This document shows, piece after piece, positions 24,005 through 30,119 of a stretch of DNA of 50,997 nt (its first letter is position 1; each line of letters begins with the position of its first letter). The position numbers and the translations under genes are program-made. The stretch spans positions 1 through 50,997 of the forward strand of contig JAFGNP010000053.1 in assembly GCA_016926975.1 (NCBI GenBank), written 5' to 3'. The DNA is from Coriobacteriia bacterium (lineage in GTDB: Bacteria; Actinomycetota; Coriobacteriia; Anaerosomatales; Anaerosomataceae). Below the pieces are notes generated by a model. That model worked only from the letters and a program-made list of their open reading frames with translations. It searched no databases and was not told the origin of the DNA.

Positions 24005-24023
24005 AGTATACCACAAGTGGTAT
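24005..24023 (-). promoter_or_regulatory. Candidate gyrB promoter with overlapping palindrome
   Basis: 16-bp perfect palindrome ATACCAC-AA-GTGGTAT (24008-24023); minus-strand reading contains extended -10 TGGTATACT. Confidence 0.4.
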
Positions 24024-24592
24024 TACAAGCTGACACCCGGGAGCCCGCTGCGAGGCTCCTCGACTGCCCTTTCGGCTGCCTTCATCCGCTTGCCCTTCTT
24101 GAGCTCCAGGTCCTTCGTCATGACCCTCAATACGACCTCCCGTAGCTCCGGGTTCTTTATGGCTGCGGCCACATGGGCGACCTGCTCTTGCTCGGTTGCG
24201 TCTAGAGGCTCCGGGCTGATGTCGTCAGGTGTGTAGAACTCGTCCGTGTCGGCCGAGCCGACCTCCCAGACGATCGCTTCCTCCACCTTGCGCGACACAG
24301 TGAACCTCAGCGCCCTAACCGTATTCTCACCCAGACGCGCGTTGATTGCGTCCAGAAGATCACCCGACATCAACGTGAGCTGATTGGCCCACGCCGCGCT
24401 GTCCACGAACACGACGAGTTCGCGGTCTTCTCTCATCGCGAAACCCCGCGTGTGCTGAGCTATCTCGTCCCCGGCGATGGAACTCCAGGCGCTGACCGCC
24501 TTGGCGCCGTGCCGCTTGCCGGACTTGTCAGCTCTTCTGATCACACCCTCCGCGACATCTCCAAGACCTAAGGTCTTTCTTGAGCGCGCCAC
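24023..24592 (-). CDS. dciA: DUF721 / DciA-family protein
   Basis: Position recF-X-gyrB and DUF721 segment AWSSIAGDEIAQHTRG...LVVFVDSAAWANQLTLMSGDLLDAINARLGE. Confidence 0.85.
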   Translation of the reverse strand: MARSRKTLGLGDVAEGVIRRADKSGKRHGAKAVSAWSSIAGDEIAQHTRGFAMREDRELVVFVDSAAWANQLTLMSGDLLDAINARLGENTVRALRFTVSRKVEEAIVWEVGSADTDEFYTPDDISPEPLDATEQEQVAHVAAAIKNPELREVVLRVMTKDLELKKGKRMKAAERAVEEPRSGLPGVSL

Positions 24593-25710: not shown

Positions 25711-26811
25711 CTAACCGAGACGGACCGGCATCAGGAGGTATACGAAGCCGTCACCCTTGCCAGGCTTAAGCACTCCCGGCTTAAGGGGACTGCTCACCTC
25801 AAGGGCGACAGTGTCCCCCTCCGCCACAGAGACACCATCAAGCAGGTATGCGTGATTGAACGCGATCTCGACATCCTCGCCATCCGGTACCACTTGGATG
25901 TCTTCGCTGGCGTCACCGACATCTTGTGTGGCGGCAGAGAGTGTGAGGGTGTGTTCCGCCGCAGAGATCTTCACGCGGAGAGGTGTGCTGTGTTGGGCCA
26001 TCAAGGAGACTCTCTTCACGGCTTCCAACAACTCAACCCTGTCCACTACTGCTCTTGTGGAGTGTTCTTTTGGCAGTAGTTGGCGATAGTTGGGGAACGA
26101 ACCCTCTATCCTTCTTGAGATGAAAGTCGTGTCGCCGAAGGTGAAGATCACTTGGTTCTCTGAAACTCCTAGAGACACAGATTCTGCGGAACCTGCAAGC
26201 TTCGCCACGTCCTCCATGGCTTTGCCGGGCACGACCAATTCTATGTCATCGCCGACACCTTCGACTTCCACCTCTCCAACACAGAGGCGATACGAGTCTG
26301 TTGCGACCATTCGAAGCATTCCCGCTTCGATCATCACAAGCATTCCTGTAAGAATCGGACGAGTCTCATCCCTGCTCACGGAACGCGACACTTGATGGAC
26401 TAGATGGGAGAAAACCTCACTTGGCACCGATATCGTCTGGTTAGCATTCACTTCCGGGAACTTAGGATAGTCTTCTGGCGCGAGAGTCTTCATCGAGAAA
26501 GACGACTGTCCACAGACTACTTGCGCTGTCCTTTTCTCGTTTGTGGTCACAGTGACCGCTGCTTCCGGAAGACTCCTTACAACATCGGTCAGCAGTTTAC
26601 CTGGTAAAACACTATTCCCTGGCGTTTCAACCCTCGCCTTACATGAAGTCTTGATGGACACCTCTAGATCAGTGGCCTGAAAGACCACCGTATCTTCGTT
26701 TGTCGACACATGTATCCCTGACAAGATAGGAAGCGTGGTCCTTGAAGACAGCCCTCGGGATACCACGGATAGAGCATCAAGCAGCTCTCCGCGTGCGATC
26801 GAGATCTTCAT
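25711..26811 (-). CDS. dnaN: DNA polymerase III beta subunit (sliding clamp)
   Basis: MKISIARGELLDALSVVSRGLSSRTTLPILSGI...; C-terminal YLLMPVRLG. Confidence 0.97.
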   Translation of the reverse strand: MKISIARGELLDALSVVSRGLSSRTTLPILSGIHVSTNEDTVVFQATDLEVSIKTSCKARVETPGNSVLPGKLLTDVVRSLPEAAVTVTTNEKRTAQVVCGQSSFSMKTLAPEDYPKFPEVNANQTISVPSEVFSHLVHQVSRSVSRDETRPILTGMLVMIEAGMLRMVATDSYRLCVGEVEVEGVGDDIELVVPGKAMEDVAKLAGSAESVSLGVSENQVIFTFGDTTFISRRIEGSFPNYRQLLPKEHSTRAVVDRVELLEAVKRVSLMAQHSTPLRVKISAAEHTLTLSAATQDVGDASEDIQVVPDGEDVEIAFNHAYLLDGVSVAEGDTVALEVSSPLKPGVLKPGKGDGFVYLLMPVRLG

Positions 26812-27039: not shown

Positions 27040-28407
27040 CTAATTCCGTTGCCGTATCAAGTTTGTGAGCGTTTGAATCTGGTTGTAGACATCCCGCTGC
27101 TCATTCATAAGCCTTTGAATCTTAGTATTCGCGTACATAACCGTCGTGTGATCTCGGCCACCGAACTCACTGCCGATTTTGGGCAGAGAATGGTCAGTCA
27201 GCTCGCGGGACAGATACATACCTATCTGCCGAGGAAAGACGATCGACTGGGCCCGCTTGTTTCCCACCAACTCATTCTTGTTGATTCCGTAGTACTTGCA
27301 GACCTCTTGTTGGATGAGCGAGATGGAGATCGGTTTGATCGAGCGCTCAGGGAAGATGTCCTTCAAGACGCTTTGCGCCAGATCGAGATTGATGGCACGC
27401 CGGGTCACTGAGCTGAAGGCTACCACTCGAAGCAACGCCCCCCAGAGCTCGCGGATGTTGCTGGAGAAGCGGTCCGCTATCAACGAGAGAACCTCATCCG
27501 GGACCTCGTGGCCGTCTGCCTGGGCTTTGCGGCGGAGTATAGCGATGCGGGTCTCGAGGTCGGGCGGCTGGATGTCCGCAATCAAACCCCCACCGAAGCG
27601 CGTGCGAAGGCGTTCCTCGATATCGCCGATTTCCGCCGGTGGCCGATCCGAGGTCATCACTATCTGCTTACCGGCCTCCCGAAGCGTGTTGAAGGTGTGG
27701 AAGAACTCAGTCTGCGTCTGTTCTTTACCAGCGATGAACTGTATGTCGTCAACAAGGAGGACGTCGTTCTCTCGATAGGAGCGACGGAACCCCTCGATGC
27801 GGTTCTTGTCACGGATGGAGTCCACAAAGTCATTGGTGAACTGCTCACTGGACACATACTTAACCTTCATGTGCGGGTAGCTGGACCTGACGTACGAACC
27901 GATCGCCTGAAGAAGGTGAGTCTTCCCCAAGCCGGCACCTCCATAGATGAAGAGTGGGTTGTACGCAGAGCCGGGGGCTTCGGCCACAGCCAGGGCCACA
28001 TGGTAGGAGAACTGGTTTGATGCACCGACGACAAATGAATCGAAGGTGCACCGGGGATTCAGCTCTACCTCATCCTGTTTGCTAACGGAGGTGACGATGG
28101 GATCCGGTTCCACCGTGAGTGTGTAGTTCACAGGCTCCGGTGGGGTCTCTACGGCGCTGCTCCCCGGGACACTGAAACGAACGACCATCGGCGATCCGGT
28201 GACCTGGGTCAGGGCGGAAGCCAACAGACTTGAGTAGCGGGTTTCAAGCCAGTCCCTGGCGAAGTCGTTCTGAACGGACACAACCATCTCCTGCTCTACG
28301 ATCCCAAGCGGGGCTGTCTGCTCGAACCAGGTCTTGAAAGTCGGCGTGTTCAGCTCTCCCCGCACGACATCAAGGGTGTCCTGCCAAACCTGCTGTACGT
28401 CAACCAT
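27040..28407 (-). CDS. dnaA: Chromosomal replication initiator protein DnaA
   Basis: NPLFIYGGAGLGKTHLLQAIGSY, DVLLVDDIQFIAGKEQTQTEFFHTFN, FGGRDHTTVMYANTKI. Confidence 0.98.
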   Translation of the reverse strand: MVDVQQVWQDTLDVVRGELNTPTFKTWFEQTAPLGIVEQEMVVSVQNDFARDWLETRYSSLLASALTQVTGSPMVVRFSVPGSSAVETPPEPVNYTLTVEPDPIVTSVSKQDEVELNPRCTFDSFVVGASNQFSYHVALAVAEAPGSAYNPLFIYGGAGLGKTHLLQAIGSYVRSSYPHMKVKYVSSEQFTNDFVDSIRDKNRIEGFRRSYRENDVLLVDDIQFIAGKEQTQTEFFHTFNTLREAGKQIVMTSDRPPAEIGDIEERLRTRFGGGLIADIQPPDLETRIAILRRKAQADGHEVPDEVLSLIADRFSSNIRELWGALLRVVAFSSVTRRAINLDLAQSVLKDIFPERSIKPISISLIQQEVCKYYGINKNELVGNKRAQSIVFPRQIGMYLSRELTDHSLPKIGSEFGGRDHTTVMYANTKIQRLMNEQRDVYNQIQTLTNLIRQRN

Positions 28408-28422
28408 CAGCCACTCGCCGCC

Positions 28423-29235
28423 TTATCTTCCAAGTATTGCATCAAGACACCGGACACCCCGATCGGTAAGCATCCGCTTACCGGCATTGTCGGCCGACAG
28501 GAGTTCATGGCCGGCCAACTGCTCGAGGTCGCGATACGCGGTAGAAAGCCCGACGCCCAGCTCTCTAGACACTATGCTGGGGCCGATCGAACCCAACTCC
28601 ATTGCGAGGGACAGCACCTGTTTCTGGCGCAAGCTCAGGGCGGGGAGTTCATACTCCTCCCGGACCAGCGCAGTATCCGGTTCGACGGCCTGGACAGGTG
28701 TGTTCATGCGGAGCGTCACGACAGTTCCACTACCGAGGTTGTCGTCGATCGCGATCGTGCCCCCCGAGAAGGTCAGGCACTCCCGGGCGACCGGCAGTCC
28801 GGATCCGACGCCCTTGATGACGTACTTCATTTCCGTCGTTGCGGTGGTGAACCCTGGGAGGAAGACCCGGTCCTTGTCTCGGATACCGGGACCCTGGTCT
28901 GCGAAGCTGATCATCCTTCCTCCATCCAGAATGCTGACGACGACCTCGTCGAACCCGGCGTGGATGAAGTTCTCAACGACCTCACGTATGACCGTATAGG
29001 GAATCTCCCCGCCGGGCTCATGCGACAGTTGGTACGTGCGCGAAGACAGACTCTCTATCAGGGCGCGCGCGGAGTCCTCTTCGACACGCTCCACCCGGGG
29101 TGGCGCAGTCATGGCATCGTACACCGCGATCAGGGCGGGAGCCGGACCGGGCACTGAAGTTGCCGCGTCCAGAGACTCTGCTGGCGCGAGAGCTTCAAGG
29201 CCGTCAAGCCCACGCGGATCATAGGGAGACCTCAT
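28423..29235 (-). CDS. GHKL (HATPase_c, SpoIIAB/anti-sigma-like) ATP-binding protein with C-terminal HTH-like domain, upstream of dnaA
   Basis: N-box REVVENFIHAGF, G1 ADQGPGI, G2 GVGSGLPVAREC, GSGTVVTLRM; C-terminal LSLRQKQVLSLAMELGSIGPSIVSRELGVGLSTAYRDLEQL resembles a winged/HTH domain; no His phosphoacceptor domain evident. Confidence 0.8.
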   Translation of the reverse strand: MRSPYDPRGLDGLEALAPAESLDAATSVPGPAPALIAVYDAMTAPPRVERVEEDSARALIESLSSRTYQLSHEPGGEIPYTVIREVVENFIHAGFDEVVVSILDGGRMISFADQGPGIRDKDRVFLPGFTTATTEMKYVIKGVGSGLPVARECLTFSGGTIAIDDNLGSGTVVTLRMNTPVQAVEPDTALVREEYELPALSLRQKQVLSLAMELGSIGPSIVSRELGVGLSTAYRDLEQLAGHELLSADNAGKRMLTDRGVRCLDAILGR

Positions 29236-29258
29236 TCACAAACCCCCAAGAGACTACT

Positions 29259-29797
29259 TCATCCACAAACCAGTCCACAATTCACACAGTTGGCCTTGTA
29301 CCAGAAACTGCTGGTAGATGCCGTATCCACAAGCCTCGCGTTCCAGTCGAGCCGTTCCCAGTGAAATGCGCTGAACAGGTCGTTTACCTGTTGTCCACAA
29401 GACTTTCCACACCTGTGGAGAGACTTTCCACCACATCCATCGAACACGCGTCGAACACGCAGGTAGTGGTTCTCCAGAGCTACGAAAAGCCTTTCCATCG
29501 GCATTCGGCCGGTGGACAACGCTCTCGCTGTTGTGGAAAGAGCTGACATACTGTCAAATGGCTAAAGGTACACAGGTGCTGCGCTGTGGATAACCAGTCG
29601 GAGCAACCTGTCTGCAGCTGGGCCGTAGAAACCGTACAACCACTCTGACCTGGGCGTTTACAGCTGCGCGGCCGAGAAACATCGGGCGGCGGAGCGGGAT
29701 CGATTGTATCAGAGCGGTTGCGGGCGCAACAACGGACGGAATGCTGTTATCCACAGGTGCGGCGTGCTTGATTCCTGGGTTTTCCACACTGTCCACA
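29259..29797. promoter_or_regulatory. oriC: oriC: main DnaA-box cluster
   Basis: Perfect boxes TGTGGATAA (29585-29593) and TTATCCACA (29747-29755); near-consensus TCATCCACA 29259, GTATCCACA 29323, TTGTCCACA 29391, CTTTCCACA 29403, TGTGGAGAG 29414, TGTGGAAAG 29532, TTTTCCACA 29780, CTGTCCACA 29789. Confidence 0.9.
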
Positions 29798-29893
29798 GAT
29801 TTCGGACTTTTTTCGCGCATCAGCCCGGGGAGTACTGTGAAACGCCACCACCAGCCACGAGGCACAACGTGCTCTCCAGGTGATGTAGGCACG

Positions 29894-29923
29894 TTGACAT
29901 GCGGCACAGGGCGCCGCTATAAT
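29894..29923 (+). promoter_or_regulatory. Consensus housekeeping promoter of the rpmH operon
   Basis: TTGACA (29894-29899), 18-bp spacer, TATAAT (29918-29923). Confidence 0.88.
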
Positions 29924-29975
29924 CGCCGAGCTTGTGCCCAGACCAGCACCGGGGCACCGACATGGAGGTTCTGAA

Positions 29976-30119
29976 GTGAAGCGTACATATCAGCCGAACA
30001 ACCGGAAGCGCGCGAAGACGCACGGATTCCGGAAGCGCATGTCCACGAAGGCCGGCCGGGCGATACTGGCCGCTCGCCGCCGCAAGGGTCGCAAGGTAAT
30101 CTGCCCTAGCGCCGCGTGA
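29976..30119 (+). CDS. rpmH: 50S ribosomal protein L34
   Basis: [50 protein letters not shown] start. Confidence 0.97.

Follow-up and report, generated by a model that had tools for sequence, protein, structure and literature searches.

Immediately upstream of dnaA and beside the replication origin, the window (the whole stretch of 50,997 nucleotides analysed here) carries a gene whose 270-residue product is predicted to join a GHKL ATPase domain to a winged helix-turn-helix (wHTH). From its sequence and its position, this gene is a strong candidate for an undescribed control of the timing of chromosome copying. We lean towards a reading in which the product would bind DNA in an ATP-gated way and regulate the dnaA operon, oriC or both, as a single-copy regulator that is ancestral to the actinobacteria and whose gene comes first in the dnaA unit. 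GHKL-wHTH proteins and one-component regulators are known; no description of a GHKL-wHTH gene family beside dnaA was found in the open-access literature and, as far as could be found, the present family and its place are undescribed. The features of the locus are the following.

28423..29235, minus strand: gene for the GHKL-wHTH protein, 270 aa (ORF; HATPase_c 1.3e-10; AlphaFold2 pLDDT 87.5; orthologs)
28702..29136, minus strand: GHKL ATPase domain, aa 34-178 (Pfam HATPase_c at aa 80-178, AlphaFold2 fold, invariant residues)
28951..28992, minus strand: N box, aa 82-95, VIREVVENFIHAGF (alignment of 50 orthologs)
28882..28899, minus strand: G1 box, aa 113-118, DQGPGI (same alignment)
28792..28812, minus strand: G2 box, aa 142-148, GVGSGLP (same alignment)
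28432..28638, minus strand: predicted winged helix-turn-helix, aa ~200-268 (AlphaFold2 helices and wing strands; HTH families across members; PDB wHTH profile matches)
28528..28551, minus strand: predicted recognition helix, aa 229-236, GLSTAYRD (top conservation among the segments compared at phylum scale)
27040..28407, minus strand: dnaA, next gene in the unit of the GHKL-wHTH gene (TIGR00362, E 9.9e-163)
25711..26811, minus strand: dnaN (ORF; also recovered downstream of dnaA in relatives)
29236..29975, no strand: oriC-type interval with DnaA boxes (e.g. 29788-29780, 29755-29747 and 29593-29585; conserved cluster at ~29421-29370)
29703..29732, minus strand: predicted promoter of the gene-dnaA unit, TTGTTG-18-TACAAT, with an extended -10 (TGATACAAT)
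29648..29665, minus strand: candidate operator or degenerate DnaA site, unproven (order consensus CCTTGAAAA, degenerate in the window)
29894..29923, plus strand: rpmH promoter, TTGACA-18-TATAAT (12/12 match)
29976..30119, plus strand: rpmH, divergent neighbour (ORF; conserved neighbour in relatives)

The ORF begins with ATG, and 15 nt separate its stop codon from the dnaA ORF on the same strand, as a sequence-only reading of this stretch had described; the DnaA-box cluster that it had placed next to the gene is also there, canonical boxes being present in the rpmH-dnaA interval. Elsewhere in the window a DUF721-type protein is encoded beside recF (24023-24592, minus strand), and is probably DciA, the ancestral helicase operator (PMC5109545).

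The HATPase_c match of the window protein (PF02518) lies above the Pfam cut-off; no NCBIfam model exceeded its own cut-off, GHKL-type similarities alone appearing far below. All 50 class orthologs collected in alignment A1 matched HATPase_c, and the three boxes, which read R-E-V-V-E-N-F-I-H-A (with E85 and N89), D113-Q-G-P-G-I and G142-V-G-S-G-L-P, were nearly invariant. Residues N89, H92, G106, D113, G115, G117, G128, I140, G142, G144, G146, N166, G170, T174 and G260 were identical in every member, and E85 was kept in at least 90%. Together with the Pfam match and the predicted Bergerat fold, these residues place the domain in the GHKL superfamily. Judged from the alignment, the ATP site is complete, including the catalytic general-base Glu85 of an E-x-x-x-N N box. 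Neither a transmembrane segment nor a phosphoacceptor domain was matched in the window protein, in agreement with the sequence-only reading. The same reading had called the boxes SpoIIAB/RsbW-like: all three are present, but the N box resembles that of MutL (ELVENxxDAG) at least equally and the invariant His at N+3 is unusual. PDB-profile matches to KinB, MutL and CheA were better than that to SpoIIAB (1.3e-5 for MutL; E 0.003 for SpoIIAB, 1l0o). Membership of the sensor histidine kinases was rejected, as HisKA was matched neither in the window protein nor in the 50 members and the AlphaFold2 model contains no DHp helix pair.

The wHTH is weak in the single window sequence (0.014; Pfam matches at aa ~193-266) and clear across orthologs, with HVO_A0261_N found in 47/50 and HTH_IclR in 46/50 (best HTH_IclR match 5.7e-11). 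The AlphaFold2 model computed on A1 (mean pLDDT 87.5) shows the GHKL fold at aa 34-178, a variable linker, and a wHTH at aa 202-268 composed of helices 202-214, 219-226 and 230-242, a wing and a helix 258-268, with pLDDT mostly 96-98. The same two domains were predicted for L100, a protein of another family that is 46% identical to the window protein in alignment A2. Pfam, PDB profiles, AlphaFold2 and Foldseek thus agree on the architecture, and an H1-H2-H3-wing fold with a recognition helix is predicted in two families, so that the C-terminal helix-turn-helix-like segment suspected from the letters alone is upheld by structure prediction.

Segment conservation was compared at phylum scale, with members not chosen by their helix and with the Coriobacteriales left out as a clade. 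The recognition helix (LSTAYRD) had the highest mean majority fraction, 0.81, followed by the N box (0.75), G1 (0.75), the lid/G2 region (0.71), the wing GKR.LT (0.68) and the linker (0.21). This ranking suggests that, outside the Coriobacteriales, the DNA target is conserved across families and hardly changed while they diverged; DNA binding in itself is very likely. In the Coriobacteriales the wHTH has diverged (TWSR, not AYRD) and the GHKL part is retained, so the ATPase part may be the more important there. Separately from the domains, the first residues of the orthologs are conserved (window 29206-29235), start codons having been chosen heuristically: they read M[KR]xF[FY] in the order, M-x-x-x-FYPF in Atopobiaceae-type genomes and MENYFQRFV or MKNFLEK in deep families. 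In L100 a helix is predicted at residues 2-16 with lower confidence, tethered by a low-confidence linker. This N terminus is possibly a partner-binding peptide.

Within the class, the gene is present in a single copy in 183 of 200 genomes (E <= 1e-12). Nine of the 17 genomes without it give no dnaA match either (E <= 1e-30), and the region is therefore probably missing from these assemblies; in G019, dnaA is cut by the contig start; and seven (G036, G051, G066, G068, G074, G078 and G156) keep rpmH and dnaA with no homolog between them. Linkage was tallied in 125 class genomes from the positions of gene and dnaA. In 117 the gene immediately precedes dnaA in the same orientation, and five more show this arrangement across the start of a circular record (122/125); in the other three, the pair is split between contigs (two) or inverted (G185, locus L070). 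A second inversion was found in G115 (L080). In G185 and G115 alike, the gene faces away from dnaA and is separated from it by an interval that contains DnaA boxes and that the gene therefore still borders. Wherever the contig permits, and save these two inversions, the order is rpmH pointing away from oriC on one side and the gene, dnaA and dnaN on the other. Of the three outcomes that would have refuted the sequence-only reading, none arose in the computations: homologs outside this strain are linked to dnaA, an HTH fold is predicted, and so is a shared transcript. A 61/61 tally includes histidine kinases, and only strong matches are called orthologs; the L019-L021 matches were rejected as orthologs because they are GHKL-only.

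The gene is common to most deep-branching Actinomycetota, which corrects the view of it as a Coriobacteriia speciality: a profile search of 297 genomes of the phylum gave 126 matches at E <= 1e-20, one per genome, of which 96 lie outside the class, in 20 family groups. Among 56 loci inspected outside the class (50 genomes), dnaA is directly downstream in 52 and the remaining four stop at a contig or record end; rpmH is divergent upstream wherever the stretch extends to it. In 18 phylum genomes without a match, no homolog was found around the dnaA start even with the profile. Because the same gene recurs at the same place across a phylum, in this strain and far beyond it, the arrangement is far beyond chance. 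On a DnaA tree of 85 rows, presence and absence change 9 times against a shuffled mean of 21.6, and 15 of the rows without the gene cluster together (support 91, not starred), surrounded by rows that carry it. The simplest reading of this tree, which is unrooted and does not strictly separate gain from loss, is that the gene is ancestral and underwent one large loss and several small, scattered ones. Gene and DnaA distances correlate (Pearson r 0.70), as vertical inheritance predicts, and a mobile or viral origin was rejected, no relatives having been found on plasmids or viral contigs. Streptomyces-type relatives do not have the gene, and we presume that the large clade lacking it includes the Actinomycetia. 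Since the gene is absent from this clade and, with rpmH-dnaA intact, from seven class genomes and G220, it is not essential for initiation generally and is dispensable in some lineages. One public record, L004 (JADIIM010000009.1, "Aeromicrobium sp. isolate bin3"), looks misnamed: its DnaA groups with the genus and family of the window with full support.

Over 88 loci in which the DnaA N terminus could be aligned, the median gap between gene stop and dnaA start is 14.5 nt; in the Coriobacteriales, either the spacing is greater or the start of dnaA is uncertain. A scan of 28300-30000 gave no terminator-like site. When 23 intergenic regions were aligned, conserved DnaA boxes emerged together with a conserved extended -10 promoter on the strand of the gene, at window 29732-29703, ~470 nt upstream of the gene. 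TGnTAgAAT is conserved at this position in order-level relatives, and TGnTATAAT promoters lie 170-500 nt upstream of the gene in many other families of the phylum. The conserved upstream promoter and the short gap predict that the gene is the first in the dnaA transcript, as had been proposed from this one locus: a single, shared transcript would start on the rpmH side of oriC and run through the DnaA boxes and the gene into dnaA. In genomes that lost the gene the promoter is mostly not seen; natural losses that keep rpmH and dnaA are found at L072-L078 and L162, and one of them, G036 (L078), still has the TGCTAGAAT promoter.

An operator search combining the 23-region alignment, 8-mer enrichment and promoter-anchored alignment yielded, besides DnaA boxes and the promoter, only a single further block, and no proven operator. 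The block, CCTTGAAAA, lies ~45 nt after the -10; it is conserved in 29 relatives, degenerate in the window, and may be a weak or degenerate DnaA site. The leader gave no Rfam match up to E 0.5. In the Coriobacteriales the enriched 8-mer of the rpmH-gene interval (L010-L018, L055, L056, L066, L067, L071, L081-L083 and L091) is TGTTGAAA (TTTCAACA), not TGTGGAWA, and the DnaA box has apparently changed there from TTWTCCACA to TTTTCAACA. Recognition helix and DnaA-box type both differ in this order; a link between the two was not used as evidence, being confounded by phylogeny, and family f36 has a changed helix with an unchanged box.

How might such a protein work? On the regulator reading, the GHKL half would bind, and probably hydrolyse, ATP and thereby change its conformation or dimer state, the wHTH half would recognise a conserved site within or close to the neighbouring dnaA promoter/oriC interval, and the protein would tune its own and dnaA transcription, origin access, or both, according to nucleotide state; negative feedback is the simplest guess for the sign of the effect. 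ATP binding commonly drives dimerisation of GHKL proteins (MutL, GyrB, Hsp90), which makes an ATP-gated dimeric wHTH regulator the simplest mechanism and ATP a plausible gate. The strict position of the gene suggests that the target is local, and likely within the interval. In favour of this reading we count the architecture, the intact ATP site, the conservation of the helix, the linkage, the gap, the promoter, the single copy and the DnaA-correlated distances. Against it, (i) no proven operator stands apart from the DnaA boxes and the promoter, (ii) the gene is absent in some lineages, (iii) the Coriobacteriales have a diverged wHTH with the GHKL part kept, and (iv) adjacency and co-transcription alone would also fit a protein acting on DnaA itself or elsewhere. 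We put forward only tentatively a bolder form, a nucleotide-state gate built into the origin, in which the ATP- or ADP-bound protein at an oriC/PdnaA element would license or block both initiation and dnaA expression, the gate being ancestral to the Actinomycetota and lost in the clade with well-studied members.

It is rather unlikely that the protein regulates initiation mainly through protein-protein contacts, its GHKL domain or N-terminal peptide touching DnaA or another replisome protein and the wHTH chiefly holding it at the origin, in a role comparable to those of SirA, YabA and Soj. Predicted co-production with DnaA, the short conserved N terminus with its predicted helix 2-16 in a deep relative and low-confidence linker, and the retention of the GHKL part beside a diverged wHTH in the Coriobacteriales would all suit such a role; however, across most of the phylum no compared segment is as conserved as the recognition helix, and tethering alone would not need this. 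We regard as decidedly improbable an ATP-dependent wHTH regulator with its main targets elsewhere in the genome, for which the location would provide growth-linked expression and autoregulation only. One-component regulators often have distant targets and the gene is dispensable in some lineages, but the gene keeps strictly to the neighbourhood of origin and dnaA, even in the two inversions, which such a regulator would not require. A SpoIIAB/RsbW-type Ser/Thr kinase or anti-factor, part of a partner-switching pathway and simply housed in the dnaA operon, is highly improbable and membership of that family was rejected: the E-x-x-x-N N box, the DxGPGI/GxGxG boxes and the weak 1l0o match recall SpoIIAB, but other GHKL profiles match better, the fused wHTH is foreign to the family, and the conserved neighbours are rpmH, dnaA and dnaN, with no STAS partner.

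Control of initiation is understood in few lineages, and a single-copy gene combining ATPase and DNA-binding domains, kept beside the origin and dnaA in at least 20 families and a whole class, is a strong genomic hint of a role in replication control. The natural losses and the inversions are built-in controls, and the role is directly testable in culturable members. If the origin gate exists, its loss in a clade with well-studied members would go some way to explaining how such control came to be overlooked.

Compared with known systems, the window protein resembles Hda, SeqA, DiaA, YabA, SirA and Soj in its proposed role only, the control of DnaA or of initiation; we know of no GHKL-wHTH protein among them. 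A published table names no homologs of these six as DnaA regulators in mycobacteria, which are thus reported to be without the set listed for E. coli and B. subtilis (PMC5720831). In M. tuberculosis, PrpR represses dnaA, binding the rpmH-dnaA region and linking metabolism to dnaA (PMC3982210). Transcription factors can thus act on an actinobacterial dnaA promoter. Unlike the window gene, that of PrpR is encoded elsewhere (Rv1129c) and its site is weak; the rpmH-dnaA interval of that lineage is oriC and promoter DNA only. To our knowledge, PrpR has no GHKL domain. CodY and NrdR, both one-component regulators, respond to nucleotide pools (GTP; ATP/dATP), and their likeness to the window protein is one of principle, the sensor domains being unrelated. 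SpoIIAB and RsbW share with it a small GHKL protein without HisKA and E-x-x-x-N and DxGxG boxes, whereas the window protein matches them weakly (E 0.003), has a wHTH and has no partner-switch genes among its conserved neighbours. With MutL, GyrB and Hsp90 it shares an E-x-x-E-N N box with the general-base Glu (MutL profile 1.3e-5); it differs in having an attached wHTH and no mismatch-repair, topoisomerase or chaperone modules, and its invariant His92 stands where these proteins have Asp. In the Foldseek search, DIP2311 of Corynebacterium diphtheriae (PDB 3lmm) came first, over both domains (E 3.1e-8, probability 1.00), followed by histidine kinases over the GHKL part; the order of COG2865/DIP2311-like proteins, GHKL then wHTH in one chain, was found at Foldseek ranks 1-4. 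DIP2311 is larger, with further N-terminal sequence that we take to be AlbA_2/Schlafen-like (COG2865), whereas neither AlbA_2 nor HATPase_c_4 matched the window protein up to E 10 and its N terminus is a short variable tail. The interdomain geometry also differs (query-normalised TM-score only 0.48, rmsd 10.5), and sequence identity is 17-18%. Both proteins nonetheless place a GHKL-like ATPase before a wHTH in one soluble chain, and on the predicted model the closest solved full architecture is DIP2311 rather than an anti-sigma factor.
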